A DNA stretch of 64,000 bases from assembly GCF_001806325.1 (NCBI RefSeq), contig NZ_CP017580.1, positions 3,731,949 through 3,795,948 of the forward strand, in the 5' to 3' direction. The DNA comes from Curtobacterium sp. BH-2-1-1. GTDB taxonomy: Bacteria; Actinomycetota; Actinomycetes; Actinomycetales; Microbacteriaceae. How positions within the stretch are numbered: position 1 is the first letter of the stretch; each line of letters begins with the position of its first letter. The position numbers and the translations under genes are program-made. Positions 7,297-18,885 of this stretch are shown piece after piece. Below the pieces are notes generated by a model, which saw only the letters and a program-made list of their open reading frames with translations, searched no databases and was not told where the DNA came from.

Positions 7297-9086
<1,790 letters not shown>

Positions 9087-9094
9087 GGGCGACG

Positions 9095-9100
9095 AGTCTA
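9095..9100 (-). promoter_or_regulatory. -10 box of the HAD-trmI operon
   Basis: TAGACT on the minus strand is eight bases before the HAD GTG start; no ribosome site is visible in between. Confidence 0.5.
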
Positions 9101-9164
9101 CCGGGGCGGTCCGCCCGCGTTCCGCTCACCGCGGACGCGTGGACGCACTCCGGTCGAGCGGCCC

Positions 9165-9170
9165 TATCCT
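9165..9170 (+). promoter_or_regulatory. -10 box of the PAC2 gene
   Basis: TATCCT lies 75 bases before the PAC2 start and would give a leader of roughly 70 bases that ends in a strong AGGAGGT ribosome site at 9232-9238. Confidence 0.45.
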
Positions 9171-9245
9171 TGTTGCTGCGAATGTCCGGTCGCGCGCGAC
9201 CTGCGAGCCGCCCGCGCCCCGCTCCACCACCAGGAGGTCCCGTCC

Positions 9246-10175
9246 GTGCCACAGCACTCCCCCTTCAGCGACGGTCGACTGCTCGTCGTCGCCTTCGAGG
9301 GCTGGAACGACGCCGGAGAAGCGGCGAGCGGTCTCGCCAGGCGCATCGTCGAGTCGCTCGAGCTCGACGAGCTGCGCGAACTCGACGGTGAGCGGTACGT
9401 CGACTACCAGTTCAACCGCCCGAACGTCGGCACGGACGAGAACGGCGGCCGGGGCATCCAGTGGCCGCGGATCGTCCTGCACGGTCCCGGTGCCGAGGGC
9501 CGACCCGTGATCGGAGCCACCGGCTCCCCGTCCGAACGCGACGTCTACGTGCTCGTCGGCCCGGAGCCCTCGCGGACCTGGCGCGGCTTCTGCGCGGAGA
9601 TCATCGACCTCGCGGACGTCTACTCGATCGACGCCGTCGTCTTCGTCGGCGCGATGCTCGCCGACGTCCCGCACACCCGACCCATCTCGGTGTTCGTGTC
9701 GAGCGAGAACGCGGGCGTGCGTGCCGCGTTCGACGTCGACCGCTCCTCGTACGAGGGCCCGACCGGGATCCTCGGGGTGCTCGCCGACGCGATGGACAGC
9801 GCCGGCCTCACCACGCTGTCGCTCTGGGCCTCGGTGCCGCACTACGTGCACAACTCGCCGTCCCCCAAGGCGACGCTCTCGCTGCTCGACAAGATCGAGG
9901 AGCTCACCGACGTCACGGTCCCGCGGGGATCGCTGCTCGACGACGCCACCGAGTGGGAGGAGGGCATCGACGCCCTCGCCGCCGACGACGAGGACATGGC
10001 GTCCTACATCGGCCAGCTCGAGCAGGCGCGGGACACGGTCGACTCCCCCGAGGCGTCGGGCGACGCCATCGCGCAGGAGTTCGAGCAGTACCTCCGCCGG
10101 CGCGAGCGCAAGGACGGCAAGGACGGCGGGACCGCCGGGGGCGAGGGGTTCCGCCCGCCGCCACCGTCGCAGTAG
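9246..10175 (+). CDS. PAC2-family protein
   Basis: PAC2-family proteins resemble archaeal/eukaryotic proteasome-assembly chaperones, but their role in actinobacteria is unknown. This member has 309 residues. The body (LLVVAFEGWNDAGEAASGLA near residues 11-30, then VVFVGAMLADVPHTRPISV) matches the family. The C-terminal 60 residues are acidic and then Arg/Lys/Gly-rich and look unstructured. GTG at 9246 is fixed by AGGAGGT seven bases upstream. It stands alone, facing mshC, with a 75-bp palindrome after its stop. No proteasome genes are in the window, so an assembly role is doubtful here. Confidence 0.85.
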   Translation: MPQHSPFSDGRLLVVAFEGWNDAGEAASGLARRIVESLELDELRELDGERYVDYQFNRPNVGTDENGGRGIQWPRIVLHGPGAEGRPVIGATGSPSERDVYVLVGPEPSRTWRGFCAEIIDLADVYSIDAVVFVGAMLADVPHTRPISVFVSSENAGVRAAFDVDRSSYEGPTGILGVLADAMDSAGLTTLSLWASVPHYVHNSPSPKATLSLLDKIEELTDVTVPRGSLLDDATEWEEGIDALAADDEDMASYIGQLEQARDTVDSPEASGDAIAQEFEQYLRRRERKDGKDGGTAGGEGFRPPPPSQ

Positions 10176-10249
10176 ACGCGACCACACGGACGGACGGGAG
10201 GCGCGGTGCCAGCTGGCACCGCGCCTCCCGTCCGTCACTTGGTCGCGTC
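10175..10249. repeat. Family-1 palindrome, full copy (bidirectional terminator)
   Basis: A perfect 48-bp palindrome spans 10189-10236, centred on AGCT, with the core GGAGGCGCGG...CCGCGCCTCC. Outer arms GACGCGACCA (10175-10184) and TGGTCGCGTC (10240-10249) pair after a short unpaired patch. It lies between the convergent PAC2 and mshC genes, where it could end transcription from both sides. Confidence 0.85.
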
Positions 10250-10374
10250 CCGTCCCGTCCGCGCGAGCGGGCACTTTCGGTCACGCTCGGCGCCTGGAGT
10301 CGGGCGATTCCGCCCTCTCGGCGAACCTGAGCCGCATGTCCTGCCCGCTCGACGAACGGGGGCGGCCGACCGGG

Positions 10375-11619
10375 TCAGCCGAGGCGGATGCCGAGCAGGG
10401 CGTCGACCAGGTCCACGAGGTCCGGCGTGACCGCCGTCCCGCCCGCGATCGCCGTGTCGACCGCGGCTACGGCGCCCGGCGTGTCGAGGTCGTCCGCGAC
10501 ACGGGCGCGGACCCGCGCGATGACCTCGGCCGCGTCGTCGGCGTGTCCCGCGTCGCTCCCGGAAGCCCAGGCGTCCCACGTTGCCAGGCGCGTCGTGGCG
10601 CTGGTGAGCTCGGTGTCGAACCACTCCCAGTCGTCGGAGTACTTGTGCGACAGCAGCGCGAGGCGGATCGCACGCGGGTCGGCGCCGTCGTCGAGCAGCC
10701 CACGGACCGTGACGAGGTTGCCGAGCGACTTCGAGATCTTCTCGCCCTGGTAGGCGATCATCCCGGTGTGCACGAACGCCTGCGCGAGCGGCTGGTGCGC
10801 GAGCGCTGCGGCGTGCCCGGCGCTCATCTCGTGGTGCGGGAAGACGAGGTCGCTGCCGCCGCCCTGGACGCTGATCGGCAGGCCGAGGCGGTCGCCGGCG
10901 ATGACGCTGCACTCGATGTGCCACCCGGGGCGCCCGGGGCCGACGGCGGAGTCCCAGCTCGGCTCGCCCGCTCGTGCGGCGCGCCAGAGCAGCGGGTCGA
11001 GCGGGTCGCGCTTGCCCGCACGGTCGGGGTCGCCGCCGCGCTCGGCCGACAGCGCGAGCATGGTCTCGCGGTCGAGGCCGCTCTCGTCCCCGAGCGACCA
11101 GGCCTCGGTCGGGCGGTTCACGTCGAAGTAGAGGTCGTCACCGGCGGACTCCGGCGTCGGCACCGCGTAGGCGTAGCCGGTCTCCTGCAGGAACGCCACG
11201 GCCTCGGCGATGCGTTCGACCTCGTCCGTCACCGCGACGAAGTCGTCCGGCGGCAGGACCCGCAGCGCCTCCATGTCGCGCCGGAACAGGTCGATCTGCG
11301 AGGCCGCGAGCTCGCGCCAGTCGACGCCGTCCCGCGCTGCCCGTTCGAGGAGCGGGTCGTCGACGTCCGTGGTGTTCTGCGCGTACTCGACCTCGAACCC
11401 GGCGTCCCGCCAGACACGACCGAGCGTGTCGAACGAGAGGTAGGTCGCGGCGTGGCCGAGGTGCGTGGCGTCGTACGGGGTGATGCCGCACACGTAGAGC
11501 GCCGCACGTTCCTCGCCACCGGTCGGATCGACGGGCTTGCCGGTCGCCGTGTCGTGCACGACCGGGCGGGGCGCGGTGCCCGGGACATCGGGGACGGACG
11601 GGACCTGCCAGGCCCTCAC
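10375..11619 (-). CDS. mshC: Cysteine--1D-myo-inosityl glucosaminide ligase
   Basis: MshC joins cysteine to GlcN-inositol in mycothiol synthesis, using ATP through a cysteinyl-adenylate. The 414-residue protein is cysteinyl-tRNA-synthetase-like: zinc-site Cys44 in [10 protein letters not shown], the HIGH-type motif HLGH at 53-56, WHIECS and FPHHEMS for the other zinc ligands, and KISKS as the KMSKS motif. The short C-terminus without a tRNA-binding domain separates it from CysS. GTG at 11619 overlaps the uppP stop by four bases. The uppP-mshC pair is a common actinobacterial order. Presence of mshC implies mycothiol as the main thiol. Confidence 0.95.
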
Positions 11620-12446
11620 GGCTGGATCACTCCGAGCGACAACAACACGATGAGAACGATACCGAGTGCGATGCGGTAGACGACGAACGGCATGAAGCTG
11701 CGCTTGCTGATGTAGTTCATGAACGCCGCGATCACGACGAAGCCGACGACGAAGGCGACCACCGTGGCGATGAGCGTGTCGACCACGCCGAACGGCGCGC
11801 CGGTGTCACCGAGGCTCGTGGCGGCCTCGTACAAGCCGGAGAGGAACACGGCGGGCACGGCGAGCAGGAACGCGAACCGGGCGGCCGCCGGGCGGGTGTA
11901 GCCGAGCGCGAGCCCCATCGACACGGTCGCGCCGGAACGCGAGACGCCGGGGACGAGGGCGAGCATCTGGGCGAGGCCGATCAGGATCCCGCCGCCGAAC
12001 GTCATGTGCTCGATGCGCCGGACCTTCTTGCCGACGACGTCGAGCACGCCGAGCACGATGCCGAACACGATGAGGACGATCGCGACGATCCACAGCGACC
12101 GGAACGTCGTCTCGATCGAGTCCTTGAGCAGCAGGCCGGCGATGCCGATCGGGATGGTCCCGAGGATCACGAGCCACCCGAGTCGGGCGTCCGGGTCGTT
12201 CCGGGGCACGGTCTTCCCCGACAGCGACCGGAACCACCGACCGACGATCCGTGTGATGTCGCGCCAGAAGTAGATCAGCACGGCGGTCTCGGTGCCGAGC
12301 TGCGTCACCGCGGTGAACGCCGCGCCCGGGTCCTGCGCGTCCGGCAGGAACAGCCCGACGATGCGGAGGTGGGCGCTGGACGACACCGGGAGGAACTCGG
12401 TGAGCCCCTGGACGAAGCCGAGGAAGATCGCCTCGAGGATGTGCAC
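11616..12446 (-). CDS. uppP: Undecaprenyl-diphosphatase
   Basis: UppP (BacA) removes a phosphate from undecaprenyl diphosphate so the lipid carrier can be reused in cell-wall synthesis. The 276-residue protein has about eight hydrophobic segments and both catalytic signatures: [14 protein letters not shown] near residues 14-27 and [13 protein letters not shown] near residues 165-177. The GTG start at 12446 directly precedes the conserved N-terminal HILEAIFLG. It shares an operon with mshC through a GTGA overlap. Confidence 0.95.
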
Positions 12447-12508
12447 GGCTCGGGCCTTTCGGGGAGAGTCGGTTCAGGACACCGCCGGACCGGCGACCAT
12501 GCACAATA

Positions 12509-13825
12509 TCAGTACGTGGCGAGGAGGTCTCCGAGGACCTGCCGCCCGAAGGCCAGCGAGTCGAGCGGCACCCGTTCGTCCACGCCGTGGAACATCGCCG
12601 GGAAGTCCACGCCCGCCGGCAGCTGCAGCGGCACGAACCCGTAGCCCGCGATCCCCAGCGTCGACAGCGCCTTGTTGTCCGTCCCGCCCGAGAGCAGGTA
12701 CGGCAGCACCGGAGCACCCGGGTCGTGCCGGCCGAGGACGTCGCGCACGGCGTCGACCAGGGGGCCGCCGAAGTCCTGCTCGAGCCCGATGTCGCGGAAG
12801 GACATCACGACCTCGACGTCGTCGCCCGCGAGTTCCCGGACACGCGCCAGCACCGTCTCCTCGTCGCCGGGGAGGCACCGGATGTCCACCAGTGCCTCGG
12901 CGTGGTCGGGGATGACGTTGTGCTTGTACCCGGCGGTGAGCACCGTCGGGTTCGTCGTCGTGTGCAGGGCCGCGTGGATGAACCGCGACGCCGACCCCGT
13001 GGCCAGTGCCACCTCGTCCGGGCCGGTCACCATCGGGTCCACCCCGAGGAACCGTGCGACCTCGGCCACCATCGCGTCGGTCGTCGCCGACAGCCGCACC
13101 GGCCACTCCTCGCTGCCGATCCGGGCGACCGCCGCGGCGAGCTTCGTCACCGCGTTGTCGTGGATGACGTGCGACCCGTGCGCCGCGGTGCCGGTCGCGA
13201 CGAGCTTGATCCACATCAGGGCCTTCTCGCCCGTCTGCAGCAGGTACGCACGACGGTCACCGAGGGTGATCGAGTAGCCGCCGACCTCGCTGATCGCCGC
13301 GCTCGCACCCCGGAACACCTCGGGGTGGTTCTCGACGACGTGGTGCGATCCGAGGACTCCCCCGGCCTCCTCGTCGGCGAAGTACGCGATCACGAGGTCG
13401 CGCTCCGGCGCTCCCTGCTGCTCGATGACGTCCGACAGCGACGTGAGCATCATCGCGTCCATGTTCTTCATGTCGACCGCGCCGCGACCCCAGAGCATGC
13501 CGTCCCGCACCTCGCCGCCGAATGGGTCCACCGACCAGTTCGCCGGGTCCGCCGGCACCACGTCGAGGTGACCGTGCACGACCAGGGCGGACTTGTCGCG
13601 GTTGCGTCCGGGCACCCGTGCCACGACGCTCACACGATCGGGTTCGGACTCGAACAGCTGCGGCTCGAGCCCGAGCGCACGGAGCTTCGCCTCGACGTAG
13701 TGCGCCGCCTCGGTCTCGCCGCGGGACTTCCCCTCGCCCCAGTTCGTCGTGTCGATGCGGATGAGGTCACGGGCGATCGCCGCGGTGGCCTCGAGGTCGG
13801 TCAGCGTGGCCTCCGGGTTCGTCAT
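12509..13825 (-). CDS. M20-family zinc metallopeptidase / deacylase
   Basis: This 438-residue protein belongs to the M20 (ArgE/DapE/ACY1) family, whose members cleave amide bonds in dipeptides or N-acyl amino acids. Metal-binding motifs are visible: HGHLDVVPAD, DMKNMDAM and YFADEEAGG (catalytic Glu-Glu), with SGGTDNKAL and FHGVDERV near the C-terminus. A dimerisation domain (GTAAHGSHVIHDNAV) separates the halves. ATG at 13825 is six bases from a TAGCGT box, so the mRNA is probably leaderless. It is not in an obvious biosynthetic operon, so a general peptidase role is more likely than DapE. Confidence 0.88.
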   Translation of the reverse strand: MTNPEATLTDLEATAAIARDLIRIDTTNWGEGKSRGETEAAHYVEAKLRALGLEPQLFESEPDRVSVVARVPGRNRDKSALVVHGHLDVVPADPANWSVDPFGGEVRDGMLWGRGAVDMKNMDAMMLTSLSDVIEQQGAPERDLVIAYFADEEAGGVLGSHHVVENHPEVFRGASAAISEVGGYSITLGDRRAYLLQTGEKALMWIKLVATGTAAHGSHVIHDNAVTKLAAAVARIGSEEWPVRLSATTDAMVAEVARFLGVDPMVTGPDEVALATGSASRFIHAALHTTTNPTVLTAGYKHNVIPDHAEALVDIRCLPGDEETVLARVRELAGDDVEVVMSFRDIGLEQDFGGPLVDAVRDVLGRHDPGAPVLPYLLSGGTDNKALSTLGIAGYGFVPLQLPAGVDFPAMFHGVDERVPLDSLAFGRQVLGDLLATY

Positions 13826-13831
13826 GGCCCA

Positions 13832-13837
13832 ACGCTA
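13832..13837 (-). promoter_or_regulatory. -10 box of the M20 peptidase gene (leaderless)
   Basis: TAGCGT on the minus strand ends six bases before the ATG at 13825, with no ribosome site between. Confidence 0.6.
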
Positions 13838-13903
13838 CCGGTCCGCGCCGACGGCCCCGGCGTCGGACGTCACAGCAGGACGCGCCCGGGATGCGCCGCT
13901 GTG

Positions 13904-13933
13904 TTCATCGGGCGTTCAGACCCGTGCTAGTGT
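13904..13933 (+). promoter_or_regulatory. Candidate promoter of tRNA-Leu
   Basis: TTCATC (13904-13909) and TAGTGT (13928-13933) are spaced by 18 bases and lie about 65 bases before the mature tRNA. The -35 match is weak. Confidence 0.4.
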
Positions 13934-13997
13934 CTTCTCTCGGCAGGAACGCCGGGGAAACAGCCCGGAACGACGGCCGACAAGTGAAGAAACACCT

Positions 13998-14083
13998 GTC
14001 CGGGTGGCGGAAATGGTAGACGCGCTAGCTTGAGGTGCTAGTGCCCGTATTAGGGCGTGGGGGTTCAAGTCCCCCCTCGGACA
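13998..14083 (+). tRNA. tRNA-Leu (anticodon GAG)
   Basis: The acceptor stem GTCCGGG pairs with CTCGGAC (one G-U), with discriminator A at 14083. The anticodon stem CTAGC/GCTAG encloses TTGAGGT, giving anticodon GAG at 14032-14034. A long variable arm (TGCCCGTATTAGGGCG) marks a class II tRNA. The T arm is GGGGG-TTCAAGT-CCCCC. The CCA end is not encoded. Confidence 0.96.
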
Positions 14084-14094
14084 CAGGAAATGGG

Positions 14095-14124
14095 ATGCCC
14101 CCTGGCCTTTCGGCCCGGGGGCAT
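14095..14124 (+). terminator. Hairpin terminator after tRNA-Leu
   Basis: ATGCCCCC at 14095-14102 pairs with GGGGGCAT at 14117-14124, with GGCC/GGCC inside. A competing outer pairing AGGAAATG/CATTTCCT extends it. It begins 12 bases after the tRNA. Confidence 0.8.
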
Positions 14125-14254
14125 TTCCTGTTGTGTCTTCCCGGCGAGTGCCGCCGTCGCTTCGCTCGGGGCGTCACCGCCTCAGCCGCGCCAGTTCGCT
14201 GCGCTCACGGCGGGTACGGGGTGCGTCCGGCAGGTAGGTGCCGGTTCGCGGCGG

Positions 14255-14282
14255 CGCGTGACGAAACGGGGCGGGCGGACTC
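14255..14282 (+). promoter_or_regulatory. Candidate ECF-type promoter upstream of the adhesin gene
   Basis: The block CGCGTGACGAAACG, seven bases, then CGGACTC recurs with one base changed at 16617-16644, before the membrane sigma-factor gene. Twenty of the 21 fixed positions agree while the seven-base spacer differs completely, which argues against chance or simple duplication. GAAAC resembles ECF -35 elements. The following bases (CTCACCTTC here, CTCGCATCC there) also align with a one-base shift and could be the -10 side. Confidence 0.55.
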
Positions 14283-14376
14283 TCACCTTCGGCACCGCAA
14301 CCCGATGACCCGAGTCGACGGCCACGTCCCCGCTCGGTGCCGCGGGCCTGGCTGCCGCAGGAACCCGAGAGCCCGA

Positions 14377-15744
14377 ATGCACCACCACCCTGTCCGATCC
14401 CGCGACCGACGCGGATCCGTCCTCCTCGCGGCCGGGATCGCCGCCGTGGCCGCCATCGCCGGCGGCATCAGCGCTGCGGTCCCCGCGTCCGCCGCCGCCG
14501 AGTACACCACGAACGCGACGATCGACGGTCTCCGCTTCACGTCCCAGACCGTCACGTCCGGCAGCGCCGCCGAACTCTCCGGCACGTGGTCCCTGCCGGA
14601 CTCCCCCACCACCCCGGCCGGCTTCGTGGTGGACCTGCCGCCCGAGCTCCAGGGCCGCTCCGACGGGTTCCCCCTGCTCGCACCGGACGGCTCCGCGATG
14701 GGACGGTGCACCGTGTCCTCGACCCAGCTCGACTGCGCCGTCGACAGCGCCTACGTCGCCGCCCACCCGAACGACCTGCACGGATCGTTCTCGTTCTGGG
14801 TCACCGTCGAGACCACCACCGAGTCCGCCACACCGACGACCTACCAGGTCGGTGGCACCGCCGTGACGACCACGGTCGAACCCGCACAGCCCGGCACCGG
14901 ACCCGGGACGTGCACCGTCGACTGCACCTTCACCGGCCGGACGAGCGGCAAGTGGGGCAGCTACGACGCCGCCGCGGGTGTGGTCGAGTGGACCGTGGCG
15001 ATCGGTTCCGGCGCCGACGGCATGCCGGACGGCCAGCGCATCACGGTCACCGACACCCCCGGGCCCGACCAGGAGCTCCTCACCAGCTTCCGCGGGTACC
15101 CCTTCGCCACGCTCTGGCAGACGAACCGGACGACCACCTGGGACGACGGGCGAGAGGGGCTCACCGGATGGGCGCCGGCGTCGCGAGAGGACTACGCCAG
15201 CACGGCCGGGAGCGTCACGTTCACCGCGCGCCAGGGGTACTTCTACGACGTCCACTTCGCCACCCGGGTCACCGACGGCGGCTTGGCGGGCACCTACACG
15301 AACACCGCCACGATCAGCATCGACGGCGACGACGACTCCTCGGTCAGCGGCACGGTCGTGCACCAGGGTGGCGGCGCCTCGGGGTCCGGGACGGCACCGA
15401 CGAGCACGCCGACGCCGACGGCTCCGGCGACGGTCGAGCCCACCCCGACGCCGACCCCGACCGCTCCGGCGACGGTCGAGCCGGCCCCGACCGCCGAGCC
15501 GACCGTCCGGCCGACCGTGACGCCGGGTGCGTCGACCGCAGACGAGGAGACCGAGTCGCCGGTGCCCACGGCGATGGGCGCGGCGGTCGACACCGGAGGG
15601 ACGACGTCCGACAGCACGGCCCCCTGGTGGTCCGTCGCGCTCCTCGGCAGCGGCGGCCTGACCCTGTTGCTCGTCCTCGGCGTGTGGGCAGCCCGTACGC
15701 GGGCACGAACGCGCGCACGAACGCGCGCACGAACGCGACCGTGA
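14377..15744 (+). CDS. Secreted, membrane-anchored adhesin-like surface protein
   Basis: This 455-residue protein is predicted to be displayed on the cell surface. A basic N-terminus and hydrophobic core (VLLAAGIAAVAAIAGG) form a signal peptide, probably cut after ASA near residue 40. Two beta-rich regions follow (about 45-160 and 190-330). HPNDLHGSFSFWV in the first and GTYTNTATIS in the second recall the paired Ig-like domains of MSCRAMM-type adhesins. A Pro/Thr repeat stalk (TPTPTAPATVEP units), a hydrophobic helix and an Arg-Thr repeat tail end the protein. No LPXTG is present; AAVDTGG is the nearest look-alike. An in-frame ATG at 14305 is an alternative start. The ligand is unknown. Confidence 0.7.
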   Translation: MHHHPVRSRDRRGSVLLAAGIAAVAAIAGGISAAVPASAAAEYTTNATIDGLRFTSQTVTSGSAAELSGTWSLPDSPTTPAGFVVDLPPELQGRSDGFPLLAPDGSAMGRCTVSSTQLDCAVDSAYVAAHPNDLHGSFSFWVTVETTTESATPTTYQVGGTAVTTTVEPAQPGTGPGTCTVDCTFTGRTSGKWGSYDAAAGVVEWTVAIGSGADGMPDGQRITVTDTPGPDQELLTSFRGYPFATLWQTNRTTTWDDGREGLTGWAPASREDYASTAGSVTFTARQGYFYDVHFATRVTDGGLAGTYTNTATISIDGDDDSSVSGTVVHQGGGASGSGTAPTSTPTPTAPATVEPTPTPTPTAPATVEPAPTAEPTVRPTVTPGASTADEETESPVPTAMGAAVDTGGTTSDSTAPWWSVALLGSGGLTLLLVLGVWAARTRARTRARTRARTRP

Positions 15745-15750
15745 CCCGTC

Positions 15751-15772
15751 GCCGCGGCACCCGTGCCGCGGC
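15751..15772 (+). terminator. Hairpin after the adhesin gene
   Basis: GCCGCGGCAC (15751-15760) and GTGCCGCGGC (15763-15772) form a 10-bp stem seven bases after the stop. A second hairpin follows at 15854-15883 (CCGGTGGGC / GCCCACCGG), so the sortase gene is probably not simply co-transcribed. Confidence 0.6.
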
Positions 15773-15940
15773 CCCCGACCGCTCCGCTCGACGACCCTGC
15801 GTCGGGCGGAGTCCAGCCGGGTCCGTCGCCCGAACGACGACCCGGCGCGCGGGCCGGTGGGCAGCACCCGAAGCGCCCACCGGTCCGCACATCCAGCGCG
15901 AGACCTGCCCCGACCACGACCGACCCATCGAGGAGACACC

Positions 15941-16585
15941 GTGCACGTCCGATCCGGTCGACGACCGTCCTCACTCCCGCTCGTCCTCGCCGCCGTGAGC
16001 GCGGTCACGATGCTCGGCCTCGGGGTCGGCGGGGTGGTCACCGCGACGAACTCGACGGCACCCGGCACCGCGCGCGACATGCACGGCGACCCCGTCCGGC
16101 TCGAGGCACCCGTCGCGAGCGCTCCCGGAGCCGGAGCGACGTCCAGTGGGTCCGGACGCCTCAGCGTCCCGTCCGTGCGCCTCGACGTCCCGCTCGGTGC
16201 CCTCGACGCCGTGCGCGGCAGGATCACGCCGCCGGGGTTCCGGTCGGCGTACCTGGTCCGCGACGTCGGGGTCACCCCCGAGCACGCCGCGTCCGGCACC
16301 GTGGTCGTGGTGATGCACTCCCTGCGGGGCGGCGGCACCGCCCCGGGGAACTTCCTGACGGACGTCGATCGGGGTCGGAGTCGGGTCGCGACCGGTGCCG
16401 CGGTGACGGTCGCGGGCGTGGCGTACACGGTGACCGGCTCGACCCTGGTGGACAAGGACCGCATCGCCGACGACGCCGACGTGTGGGGCGACGTCCCCGA
16501 CCGTCTGCTCCTCATCACCTGCCTCGAACACCCGGACGGCTCACCGTCGACGCAGAACCTCGTGATCACCGCCACACGGGCGTGA
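15941..16585 (+). CDS. Sortase-like protein lacking the catalytic arginine
   Basis: Sortases cut a sorting motif and join surface proteins to the cell wall or membrane-linked partners. This 214-residue protein has an N-terminal membrane anchor (about residues 12-35), a linker, and a sortase barrel opening with LSVPSVRLDVPLG. His126 (VVVMHSLRG) and Cys194 (LLITCLEHP) fit the catalytic pair. The arginine expected about ten residues after the cysteine is missing: the segment reads SPSTQNLVI, and the only later Arg is Arg213 near the end. GTG at 15941 has AGGAG five bases upstream. Its adhesin neighbour is the obvious candidate substrate. Activity is uncertain. Confidence 0.75.
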   Translation: MHVRSGRRPSSLPLVLAAVSAVTMLGLGVGGVVTATNSTAPGTARDMHGDPVRLEAPVASAPGAGATSSGSGRLSVPSVRLDVPLGALDAVRGRITPPGFRSAYLVRDVGVTPEHAASGTVVVVMHSLRGGGTAPGNFLTDVDRGRSRVATGAAVTVAGVAYTVTGSTLVDKDRIADDADVWGDVPDRLLLITCLEHPDGSPSTQNLVITATRA

Positions 16586-16616
16586 CACCGTCCTCGTAGG
16601 TCGGATGCACCGAGGT

Positions 16617-16644
16617 CGCGTGATGAAACGTCCGACCCGGACTC
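16617..16644 (+). promoter_or_regulatory. Candidate ECF-type promoter of the membrane sigma-factor gene
   Basis: CGCGTGATGAAACG, seven bases and CGGACTC match the block upstream of the adhesin at 14255-14282 in 20 of 21 fixed positions. It lies 75 bases before the sigma-factor GTG. ECF sigma factors commonly drive their own genes, so this may be its autoregulatory promoter. Confidence 0.55.
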
Positions 16645-16719
16645 CTCGCATCCGAGAGCGGTGTGTTCAGATGGACTGCACCGCCCAGCCGGTGAACCCA
16701 GGACGAGGAGACGAACGAC

Positions 16720-18885
16720 GTGCGCGGTGCCCCTGAGCCAGGCAGTGACGCTGCACTGATCCGGTCGACGCGTGACGGCGACCGGTCGGCGGTGGCAGCG
16801 CTGTGGAGCCGGCACCACCGCGCCGCCGTCCGGCACGCGATCGGACTCGTGGGCTCCTCGGACGCCGAGGACGTCGCCTCCGAGGCCTTCACGAACGTCA
16901 TCGGTGCGATCGAACGCGGGGCCGGCCCGGACGAACTCTTCCGCCCGTACCTGTACACGGTCATCCGCAACGTCGCCAACACCGAGTTCCGCCGACGCGC
17001 CCGCCACACGGACGCCGACGTCGACTTCGACGCCTTCGAGGACTCCGGCGCCGACGCGGCGACGGAGATGGCCCGCGCCGCCGACCGCACGGCCCTGGGG
17101 CGAGCGTTCAGCACCCTGCCCGAACGGTGGCAGAGCGTGCTCTGGTACACCGAGGTCGAGGGACTGCGACCTCGACACGTCGCCCCGTTGGTCGACCTCC
17201 AGCCCGGCGCCGTCTCGTCCCTGGCGTTCCGAGCACGGCGGGCGCTCCGCGCGGCCTGGGTCCAGGAACACCTCGCGACGGACGGCCTGCCCGACGAGTG
17301 CCGTCGGCGACTGGCCGCGTTCGGCGCCTACGAGGCGGGCACGCTCACCGCGCGCGACCGTCGTCAGCTCGAGGCGCACATCCGCGACTGCGTGCACTGC
17401 CCGCCGGTGCTCGAGGACACGCGCCGACTCGCCGGACGGATCGCGGCGGCACTCCTCCCGCCGGTGGTCGGTCTGGGCATCGGTCACGCGGTGCTGCACG
17501 CAGACGCCCCCGCCGCGGCGGCCGTGTCCCCCGCTCGCTCGGCCCCGGCGACGGGTGCTGCTCGCCGAGCACCCCTGCCGGTCACCGGGGTGGTCGGCGT
17601 GGTCGCAGCGCTCGTCGTCGTCACGACCGTCGTCGCGGTCGCCGGGACGTGGTCGGACGGCCACCCGACCGGCACGTCCACCGCCGGCGCGCGCGCACCA
17701 GGTCCCGCGGGCGTCCCGGCGCCGTCAGGTGAGCACCCCGCACCGGCCGACCGCACCGCCCCGGTCCACGTCGCCGAACCGAGTCCCGTGCCGTCGCCCG
17801 GTCGCGACGACACCGGCGCACCGACGACGGTCCCGACCGCTCCGACCCCCGTCGTCGACACGGTCCTCGGGGACTCCTCCCCAGGGGCGTCCTCGACACC
17901 CGACGTCCGCACCGACGAACCGAGCGCGAACCCCACGTCACCGGGGACCGGCGGCTCCTCGACCACCGGGGGCGTCGACCCGCAGCTGCCGCGCTCCGCT
18001 CCCCCGGTCCCGGCCGAGGACACGATGCTCGTCGCCAGCCGGACCGTCGAGCTCACCGGGACGGCGACGCCCGGCAGCCGCGTCGAGGTCCGCTCCGGCA
18101 CCCTGACCGCCGCGACCACCGCCGGGTCCGACGGCACGTGGAGGACCACGCTGCGGTTCTCCGGGGACGGGGTCGAACGGGTCAGCATCACCGCGACGAC
18201 GCCGGACCACGCCACCTCGGTCCCCGTGGTCGTCACGGTCACCGTGGACACCACGGCTCCGGCGGCGCCGACGATCGCGACGACCTGGACGCCCACCGAC
18301 ACCACCCCGCCGGTGTTCTCCGGCACCGCCGAGGCCGGCAGCACGATCGACGTCACCGTCGTCCGCGGCACGAGCGGCACGAGCGGCACGAACAGCACGG
18401 GCGGCACGAGCGGCACGAGCGGCACGGGCGACACGAGCGGCACGAACGGCACGAGCAGCACGGCCACCGCGTCGACCACCACCGGTGCCGACGGTCACTG
18501 GCGCGTCGCGGTGGACGGCCTCACCCCGACCGCCACTGGGATCCGCGCCACCGCACGGGACGCCGCCGGGAACACCTCCGCGGCGACGAGCAGCGCCCCC
18601 TTCGCGTTTGTCCCGACCATCGCCGACCCCGCCGACGGGAGCACCGCGACGGGCGGCCCGCTGCCGGTCACGATCACCGGCTGGGCGGACACCGACGTCG
18701 AGGTCGCCGTCGACGGCGCGCTCGTCGGCACGGTGTCGACCGGAGCCGGGGGCCGGTTCAGCGGGCACATCCGGCGCGGGGACACCGGGCTGACGCCGGG
18801 TCGGCACACCATCACGGTGCGCTACCGCGACGATGCGGGCGCGTCCACCGAGACCGCCACGGTGACGATCACCGTGGCGGACTGA
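16720..18885 (+). CDS. Membrane-tethered ECF sigma factor fused to anti-sigma zinc finger and Ig-like ectodomains
   Basis: One 721-residue chain carries sigma2 (about residues 10-95, ending IRNVANTEFRRRAR), sigma4 (about 123-184, LPERWQSVLWYTEVEG), a zinc-finger anti-sigma motif (Cys194, then His220-x3-Cys224-x2-Cys227), a transmembrane helix (about 287-310), a long Pro/Ser/Thr linker and three bacterial Ig-like repeats (about 430-721) of the PGSxVxV...DGTW...A.D.AGN type. The expected topology puts the sigma part in the cytoplasm and the repeats outside. A run of Ser-Gly-Thr triplets interrupts the second repeat. GTG at 16720 has AGGAG about nine bases upstream. Release probably needs proteolysis, which is inference. 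Its stop overlaps the facing gene by 17 bases. Confidence 0.85.
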   Translation: MRGAPEPGSDAALIRSTRDGDRSAVAALWSRHHRAAVRHAIGLVGSSDAEDVASEAFTNVIGAIERGAGPDELFRPYLYTVIRNVANTEFRRRARHTDADVDFDAFEDSGADAATEMARAADRTALGRAFSTLPERWQSVLWYTEVEGLRPRHVAPLVDLQPGAVSSLAFRARRALRAAWVQEHLATDGLPDECRRRLAAFGAYEAGTLTARDRRQLEAHIRDCVHCPPVLEDTRRLAGRIAAALLPPVVGLGIGHAVLHADAPAAAAVSPARSAPATGAARRAPLPVTGVVGVVAALVVVTTVVAVAGTWSDGHPTGTSTAGARAPGPAGVPAPSGEHPAPADRTAPVHVAEPSPVPSPGRDDTGAPTTVPTAPTPVVDTVLGDSSPGASSTPDVRTDEPSANPTSPGTGGSSTTGGVDPQLPRSAPPVPAEDTMLVASRTVELTGTATPGSRVEVRSGTLTAATTAGSDGTWRTTLRFSGDGVERVSITATTPDHATSVPVVVTVTVDTTAPAAPTIATTWTPTDTTPPVFSGTAEAGSTIDVTVVRGTSGTSGTNSTGGTSGTSGTGDTSGTNGTSSTATASTTTGADGHWRVAVDGLTPTATGIRATARDAAGNTSAATSSAPFAFVPTIADPADGSTATGGPLPVTITGWADTDVEVAVDGALVGTVSTGAGGRFSGHIRRGDTGLTPGRHTITVRYRDDAGASTETATVTITVAD
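18367..18460 (+). repeat. GGCACGAGC-type minisatellite inside the sigma-factor gene
   Basis: Imperfect 9-bp units (GGCACGAGC and variants) encode Gly-Thr-Ser/Asn triplets in the second Ig-like repeat. Length change in steps of nine bases would keep the frame and vary a surface-exposed loop. Confidence 0.8.

Follow-up and report, generated by a model that had tools for sequence, protein, structure and literature searches.

How can a sigma factor reach a promoter when it is made in one chain with its own inhibitor, a membrane anchor, and an outer rod, and which genes would it serve? The question is raised by a 64,000-nucleotide stretch of the chromosome of Curtobacterium sp. BH-2-1-1 (contig NZ_CP017580.1, positions 3,731,949 to 3,795,948), called the window below; coordinates given without a locus name refer to it. 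A single 721-codon frame at 16720-18885(+) encodes a sigma factor, an anti-sigma domain, a membrane helix, and immunoglobulin (Ig)-like domains. The original prediction, made from the sequence of the window, saw in this protein a rare fusion and suggested a contact-sensing device. We find that the fused sigma gene is part of a three-gene accessory cassette, new here, in which it follows the genes for an adhesin and a divergent sortase, and that a promoter-like motif shared by the sigma and adhesin genes predicts what was missing from the original prediction, a regulatory connection between the two.

One polypeptide from sigma factor to Ig-like domains

The frame begins with GTG (coordinates and start were checked), and a GAGGAG run resembling a ribosome-binding site lies 5' of it and is retained in the orthologs of two other genomes of the genus, G078 and G002. 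Profile searches of each segment and a structure model confirmed the composition first read from the letters, with, in this order, regions 2 and 4 of an extracytoplasmic function (ECF) sigma factor, a zinc anti-sigma domain, one membrane helix, a Pro/Thr-rich linker, and three Ig-like beta domains. Region 2 (residues 10-100; 16747-17019) matched Pfam Sigma70_r2 above the cut-off (residues 28-95, E = 1.3e-10). Region 4 (residues 113-187; 17056-17280) taken alone scored 19.1 bits against Sigma70_r4_2 (residues 125-176), below the Pfam cut-off of 25.7, and a sigma70-ECF superfamily model spanning both regions (residues 24-178) scored 54.8 bits against a cut-off of 42.9. The pairing of sigma2 and sigma4 with no sigma3 is a feature of ECF factors. 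Eleven sequences of solved structures matched at E 0.01, all of them sigma factors and all within the first ~180 residues.

Class I anti-sigma domains are defined by the zinc motif C/H-x25-H-x3-C-x2-C followed by a sigma-binding helix. Both features are present at residues 192-259 (17293-17496), the motif as C194-x25-H220-x3-C224-x2-C227 (H-x3-C-x2-C at 17377-17400) and the helix as a predicted one; zinc and sigma binding are predicted accordingly from motif and model. The zinc finger named in the original prediction is upheld by a Pfam zf-HC2 match (residues 194-227, E = 8.3e-5; 23.0 bits, 0.8 over the cut-off of 22.2) and by the invariance of the H220, C224, and C227 positions across the 73 rows of our alignment A5, the window protein among them.

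The single clear membrane helix covers residues 290-308 (17587-17643; mean hydropathy, 2.67). Its flanking Arg-Arg, on the N side, suggests an N-in/C-out orientation, and therefore the Ig rod should face outside. A weaker hydrophobic stretch lies at residues 237-255 (1.61; 1.81 and 1.64 in the orthologs from G078 and G002, respectively). Were it a second membrane helix, the Ig domains would be intracellular, an arrangement that is disfavored by the AlphaFold2 model, which places this stretch inside the long last anti-sigma helix (residues 227-259).

Beyond the membrane, a Pro/Thr/Ser-rich linker that probably spans the wall (residues 309-432; 17644-18015) leads to Ig-like domain 1 (18016-18249; Big_6 at residues 435-507, E = 4.5e-12), domain 2 (18250-18564), and domain 3 (18565-18882; Big_13 at residues 652-719, E = 3.4e-7). 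The middle unit (residues 511-615) has no separate Pfam match and is recognized from its predicted beta structure and from the Ca_tandemer repeat model, which found four stretches at 49.5 bits, just under its cut-off of 50. Domain 2 also contains a 9-bp tandem repeat of ~11 copies (18365-18462), an expansion found in the window alone among the three orthologs, the other two having a 30-residue gap there.

The AlphaFold2 model, built on a 48-row alignment, shows mostly confident helices over residues 10-259, except for a loop at ~101-110, and mostly confident beta domains from residue 433 onward, except for residues 553-578; the membrane helix and linker (residues 263-432) are of low confidence. 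In a Foldseek search with the whole model, the template modeling (TM) scores for the whole chain were low and the best matches fell on the beta part. Among the 50 matches listed, Ca2+-stabilized bacterial adhesins (an ice-binding adhesin and SiiE) came out on top, a Bap region ranked 9th, many vertebrate Ig/Fn3 receptors stood lower down, and an ECF sigma factor ranked 50th. The view of the ectodomain as adhesin-like agrees with the top of this ranking.

Matches to the sigma/anti-sigma part at E ≤ 1e-12 occur in 6 of 66 genomes of the genus, and close orthologs in three, namely, the genome of the window, G078 (91% identity over about the first 265 residues), and G002 (73%). The orthologs in these two other genomes share the architecture of the window protein, at 77% and 58% identity, and retain sigma2, sigma4, the zinc motif, the helix, the linker, and the three Ig units. 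A sequencing or assembly error joining two genes, which the original prediction had named as a refutation of its reading, is ruled out by these two orthologs, which keep the whole architecture in the same frame, and by dozens of family members; nothing was found in favor of such an artifact, and we give it practically no credence.

Compared part by part with its G002 ortholog, the window protein is most alike in sigma2 and in the inter-region linker with sigma4 (77% identity each); the values are 65% for the anti-sigma domain, 53% for the helix, 40 to 59% for the Ig domains, and 23% for the outer linker. The outer part thus evolves faster than the sigma part. These values bear on the idea that the locus is decaying, with a sigma part that is inactive or permanently silenced, for which the low region 4 score and the 30-residue repeat expansion in domain 2 might be cited. 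However, sigma2 and sigma4 are the best-conserved parts, the family-invariant positions are retained, and the frame has no stop or frameshift, and we consider decay very improbable.

A three-gene accessory cassette

Two genes on the same strand precede the sigma gene. The first, at 14377-15744(+), encodes an adhesin-like surface protein of 455 amino acids with a Collagen_bind domain, a C-terminal membrane helix, and a basic tail; the second, at 15941-16585(+), encodes a sortase-like membrane protein of 214 amino acids. A tRNA-Leu(gag) gene (13998-14084, plus strand) marks the left border of the cassette, and the gene for a CCA-adding enzyme bounds it on the right. The adhesin and sortase-like neighbors noticed earlier are real, as judged from the Collagen_bind domain and the sortase fold, and both travel with the sigma gene.

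The three genes are found in identical order and orientation at two different chromosomal places. In G078 they lie 3' of the same tRNA-Leu as in the window; in G002 they lie elsewhere, with no cassette within 1.5 kb after that genome's own copy of the tRNA-Leu. At this tRNA-Leu the cassette is absent, within the stretch seen, from all 14 other genus genomes inspected, and in two of them (G009 and G006) the tRNA gene is followed directly by the gene for the CCA-adding enzyme. Because the trio is kept at two places and the tRNA-Leu lacks it elsewhere, we regard it as an accessory unit that stays together. The window's genome and G078 share the locus, so that the cassette occurrences amount to two independent ones. 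Close orthologs of the sigma factor and of the adhesin co-occur in the same 3 of 66 genomes: among the 65 other genomes, near-full-length adhesin matches were obtained in G078 and G002 only, and a fourth match (6e-6) covers residues 352-448 alone. In this search up to 25 first-look candidates were scored per genome, and weak relatives may have been missed.

Between the adhesin and sortase-like genes lies a conserved 16-pair hairpin (15849-15888, plus strand), either a terminator or an RNA-stabilizing element. Its consensus energy is -29.6 kcal/mol, and two pairs are changed on both sides among the three sequences. It is strong in all three cassettes and was not flagged as a T-run terminator.

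A promoter-like motif at the sigma and adhesin genes

Alignment of the upstream regions from the three genomes yielded a block common to the adhesin and sigma genes, the bipartite motif GCGTGAY-N15-SACTC, which stands 5' of both genes with equal spacing in every genome (6 of 6 sites). In the window it reads GCGTGAC-N15-GACTC before the adhesin gene (14256-14282, plus strand), where it recurs with equal spacing in G078 and G002, and GCGTGAT-N15-GACTC before the sigma gene (16618-16644, plus strand); the upstream alignment and a genome pattern count bear on both sites. The rest of the two upstream regions is 52 to 53% identical between the window's genome and G002 (47/90 and 88/167).

The window's genome has three copies of the motif, two in the cassette and one antisense within a called dehydrogenase-like coding frame. 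The three cassette genomes hold 12 copies versus 5 of a reversed control pattern, and the 63 genus genomes without the cassette hold 85 versus 75, so that no excess is seen outside the cassette genomes. In shuffles of the window alone, two matches were reached in 2 of 100. Scans for dyads shared by sigma and surface-gene promoters covered 10 of 11 pairs (three of them the cassettes; one pair was too short), and no dyad was conspicuous outside the cassettes. In G002, a third copy (L031:5365-5391, minus strand) is directed away from the cassette and lies just 5' of a frame at L031:4330-5358(-), the C-terminal part of which resembles, by eye, an isochorismatase-type hydrolase; this copy may be due to chance.

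Since the motif occurs at both genes in all six cases and the other copy in the window's genome is intragenic, the sigma factor probably controls its own gene and that of the adhesin. Read most simply, GCGTGAY-N15-SACTC is the predicted promoter of the fused sigma factor, with a regulon made up of itself and the adhesin unit. The weight of this predicted link rests on the equal spacing at both promoters and on conservation in G002.

Alternatively, the motif might belong to another regulator, a sigma factor or an activator that switches on both genes, while the fused sigma factor acts elsewhere in the manner of the pleiotropic SCO4117 of Streptomyces coelicolor, whose knockout is reported to change 56 genes (PMC5826349). 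The motif was found through footprinting only, and the window's genome encodes at least one further ECF factor, as such a reading would allow. It fits less well that motif copies are conspicuous in the cassette only, with no excess over the control in genomes that lack it, and that the sigma gene stays in the cassette at two locations, as expected for a local regulator. We hold control by another regulator to be unlikely, if still a serious competitor.

Proposed mechanism

The reading that we favor, and consider rather probable, is that the fused protein is a self-contained surface-state switch, in which a sigma factor, its off-switch, an anchor, and an adhesin-like rod control their own gene and the adjacent adhesin gene. 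The sigma factor would be made already joined to the zinc anti-sigma domain and kept inactive on the cytoplasmic side of the membrane. Because the anti-sigma domain directly follows region 4, inhibition is expected to be intramolecular, and release would therefore need proteolysis; the earlier argument that the sigma factor could not leave its partner without cleavage is supported by the architecture. The single helix and the Pro/Thr linker would take the rod across the wall. A signal on the rod, whether binding, load, or the state of the wall or of assembly, would lead to a first cut outside, followed by intramembrane cleavage by an M50 (RseP/Rip1-type) protease and degradation of the anti-sigma remnant. 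The window's genome encodes one M50 protease. The freed sigma factor would then transcribe its own gene and the adjacent adhesin gene from the GCGTGAY-N15-SACTC promoters, and perhaps the sortase-like gene behind the adhesin too. Contact sensing by the window protein, as first suggested, is plausible.

Several observations weigh against this switch. The predicted TM (pTM) score of the fused-protein model is 0.35 and the membrane region is of low confidence, so that docking of the sigma factor on the anti-sigma domain is putative. An M50 protease was found in 14 of 14 control genomes, and its presence says little. The predicted link from motif to sigma factor comes from sequence comparison, and the pattern was fixed after the aligned upstream regions had been looked at. 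A dyad scan of single genomes rose barely above shuffles (best score reached in 1 of 20 for the window, 1 of 20 for G078, and 0 of 20 for G002), and its top pair in G078 differs from the motif. The window's genome and G078, at 91% identity in a shared locus, leave essentially G002 as the independent comparison for the motif. Finally, the hairpin 3' of the adhesin gene may uncouple the sortase-like gene from it.

The sortase-like neighbor

The 214-amino-acid protein encoded between the adhesin and the sigma factor belongs to a family with 24 copies in 19 of 66 genus genomes, the window's and 18 others. At 19 of the 23 copies inspected, the gene just upstream encodes a surface protein whose C-terminal end combines [VI]xTGG with a membrane helix and, in most cases, a basic tail, and at 4 it does not; these loci are not all independent, since some copies are near-identical. 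In the window adhesin the equivalent place, before the terminal helix, is taken by VDTGG (15586-15600, plus strand), a putative noncanonical sorting motif. Two loci have an unusual anchored cargo: there (L160:4620-6149 and L162:7431-9014), the surface protein presumed to be the substrate bears a Y_phosphatase3 (tyrosine-phosphatase) domain.

Sortases of classes E and F in Actinobacteria recognize LPxTG/LAxTG signals and use a catalytic Arg. The window family resembles them in its sortase fold with His and Cys and in the position of the gene next to that of the presumed substrate, and differs from them in the [VI]xTGG signal and in an Asn near the usual place of the Arg. The His and Cys (H126 and C194 in the window protein) are invariant in 15 aligned members, as is the Asn 12 residues after the Cys (N206), placed near the catalytic Arg by eye; no Arg after the Cys is invariant. 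Although the Pfam sortase model recognizes just 2 of the 15 at E 0.01, the predicted structure (mean predicted local distance difference test score, 78) found solved sortases in all 50 matches listed. On this model, the protein is likely a dedicated single-substrate sortase with a noncanonical signal.

A common core with exchangeable outer domains

When public genomes were scanned with an alignment of seven rows, at least 594 stretches came up, at least 281 of which encode a relative; the best 80 were kept, nearly all of them labeled Actinomycetota. From 94 loci examined in the public scan and among genome loci, 6 short or ordinary proteins and 8 cut by contig ends were removed, and in 73 of the remaining 80 intact members, counting the window protein and its orthologs, a membrane helix close to the zinc motif is followed by 100 residues or more. 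Pfam domains were counted in 73 proteins (L066, L084, L090, L104, L115, L116, and L119 were left out of the 80). The core is recurrent, with Sigma70_r2 in 73, zf-HC2 in 64, and region 4_2 in 58, and the outer domains, for 25 of 28 families listed, include NPCBM in 11 proteins, Big_6 in 7, Big_13 in 5, DUF11 in 3, ricin-type lectins in up to 3, DUF642 in 2, and pilin domains with an LPXTG anchor in 1. The variety of outer domains indicates a widespread fused core whose outer part is freely exchanged. The proteins L037, L131, L084, L090, L104, L115, L116, and L119 are short, with a sigma factor and a zinc finger and no membrane helix detected; they are possibly soluble self-inhibited sigma factors.

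In a tree for which the zinc motif was demanded of every row (as it was for alignment A3 and not for A5), the window protein and its two orthologs form a separate clade with a long branch of its own. A 16-row Streptomyces/Kitasatospora clade (support, 100/100) excludes the window and holds five singly verified NPCBM proteins, NPCBM being present in 5 of 7 Streptomycetaceae members scanned singly. The deep branches are weak, and SCO4117 itself is not among the rows.

The outer part of such a sigma factor can resemble a neighbor. In L062, from Arthrobacter alkaliphilus, the gene at 7944-10538 encodes the sigma/zinc/membrane module with pilin domains and an LPTTG sorting signal behind it. Residues 429-877 of the open frame share 79% identity with residues 50-498 of the pilin encoded by the second gene downstream; the copy is this pilus backbone minus its first 49 residues. 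On the same strand there follow the genes for a large protein with SpaA domains, for that pilin, and for a sortase (10782-16726). An assembly duplicate would not be expected to have diverged to 79%. The outer domain of the L057 protein, DUF642, is similar to a DUF642 protein encoded nearby (12670-13326, minus strand; 46% over 162 residues). These were the two cases among 72 loci tested for similarity between the ectodomain and neighboring frames, and they suggest that fused sigma factors can take their outer part from a copy of a neighboring gene product. A general link of fused sigma genes with sortase-anchored neighbors was not significant over 85 family loci with the three cassettes excluded, by our own gene caller and motif rule (9/316 at ranks 1 and 2 versus 7/589 at ranks 3 to 8; Fisher P = 0.064).

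The L062 fusion, and the sortase-like gene adjoining the sigma gene of the window, could be taken to mean that the window protein is mainly a structural or assembly partner whose sigma part reports the assembly state of sortase or adhesin rather than external contact. However, the window protein ends without a sorting signal or C-terminal helix, and no neighboring frame, that of the adhesin included, resembles its ectodomain at E 1e-4; we think this quite unlikely. For the family at large, we offer with little confidence a further possibility, that in some actinobacteria the outer part of a membrane-tethered sigma factor is a decoy or probe of the surface structure that it controls (sortase and adhesin, or pilus), so that assembly or load, by pulling on the probe or altering it, would lead to proteolytic release and to more of the structure. 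L062, with its pilus backbone copy and sorting signal, would be the clearest form and the window cassette a second one.

Relation to known systems

The fusion of sigma factor, anti-sigma domain, and membrane helix is an already known actinobacterial kind, and the rarity stated in the original prediction is not supported: it is common in Actinomycetota. The groups ECF48, ECF52, and ECF53, in which a zinc finger and one helix or two are joined to the sigma factor, are described as expected to undergo proteolytic release (PMC8999054). The window protein has the fused zinc anti-sigma domain and helix of ECF48 and ECF53 and shares their architecture as far as the helix, with proteolytic activation likewise expected (PMC8999054), but it continues for ~530 residues after sigma4, with Ig domains, whereas the extensions in the descriptions compared run to 400 residues or less. 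The studied case within ECF52, SCO4117, likewise unites in a single chain an ECF sigma factor, a zinc finger, a membrane helix, a Pro-rich region, and an extracellular domain, and autoregulation was suggested by its authors (PMC5826349). It differs in bearing a carbohydrate-binding module (NPCBM in the Streptomyces relatives examined here), whereas the window protein has Ig domains and is encoded in an adhesin/sortase cassette. We rejected filing the window protein under ECF52, as it has no NPCBM match and does not group with the Streptomyces clade of NPCBM proteins, in a tree with weak deep branches and without SCO4117.

In Clostridium thermocellum, SigI/RsgI systems sense carbohydrates through an extracellular binding domain on a membrane anti-sigma factor and control genes for surface and secreted proteins. 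The likeness to the window protein lies in the outer binding domain on a membrane anti-sigma factor; SigI and RsgI are, in contrast, two separate proteins, and the sigma factor is of another family. IutY of Pseudomonas putida (ECF243) acts in iron cell-surface signaling in a Gram-negative host and has a FecR-like anti-sigma part, an ECF243 feature for which Pfam gave no match in the window protein. The two share a sigma factor fused to a membrane anti-sigma part, and for IutY stepwise proteolytic release has been experimentally characterized (PMC8999054). Among the papers listed in literature searches, judged at the level of abstracts, none besides PMC8999054, PMC5826349, and PMC8103513 deals with membrane-bound sigma factor fusions that carry adhesin or pilin domains; a mention in the 2021 ECF classification is possible.

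The output of fused ECF factors of this layout is little known apart from SCO4117, as far as these accounts go (PMC8999054, PMC5826349). The cassette is compact and accessory, and its predicted regulon has two promoters and includes a surface adhesin, so that input, release, and output are testable with three genes and one reporter. A sortase paired with a VxTGG-type signal may widen the range of known sorting motifs. If the L062 pilin fusion works as it looks, a transcription factor would be wired through one polypeptide into a wall-anchored fiber, and such a protein would offer a direct test of mechanical or assembly sensing in Gram-positive bacteria.

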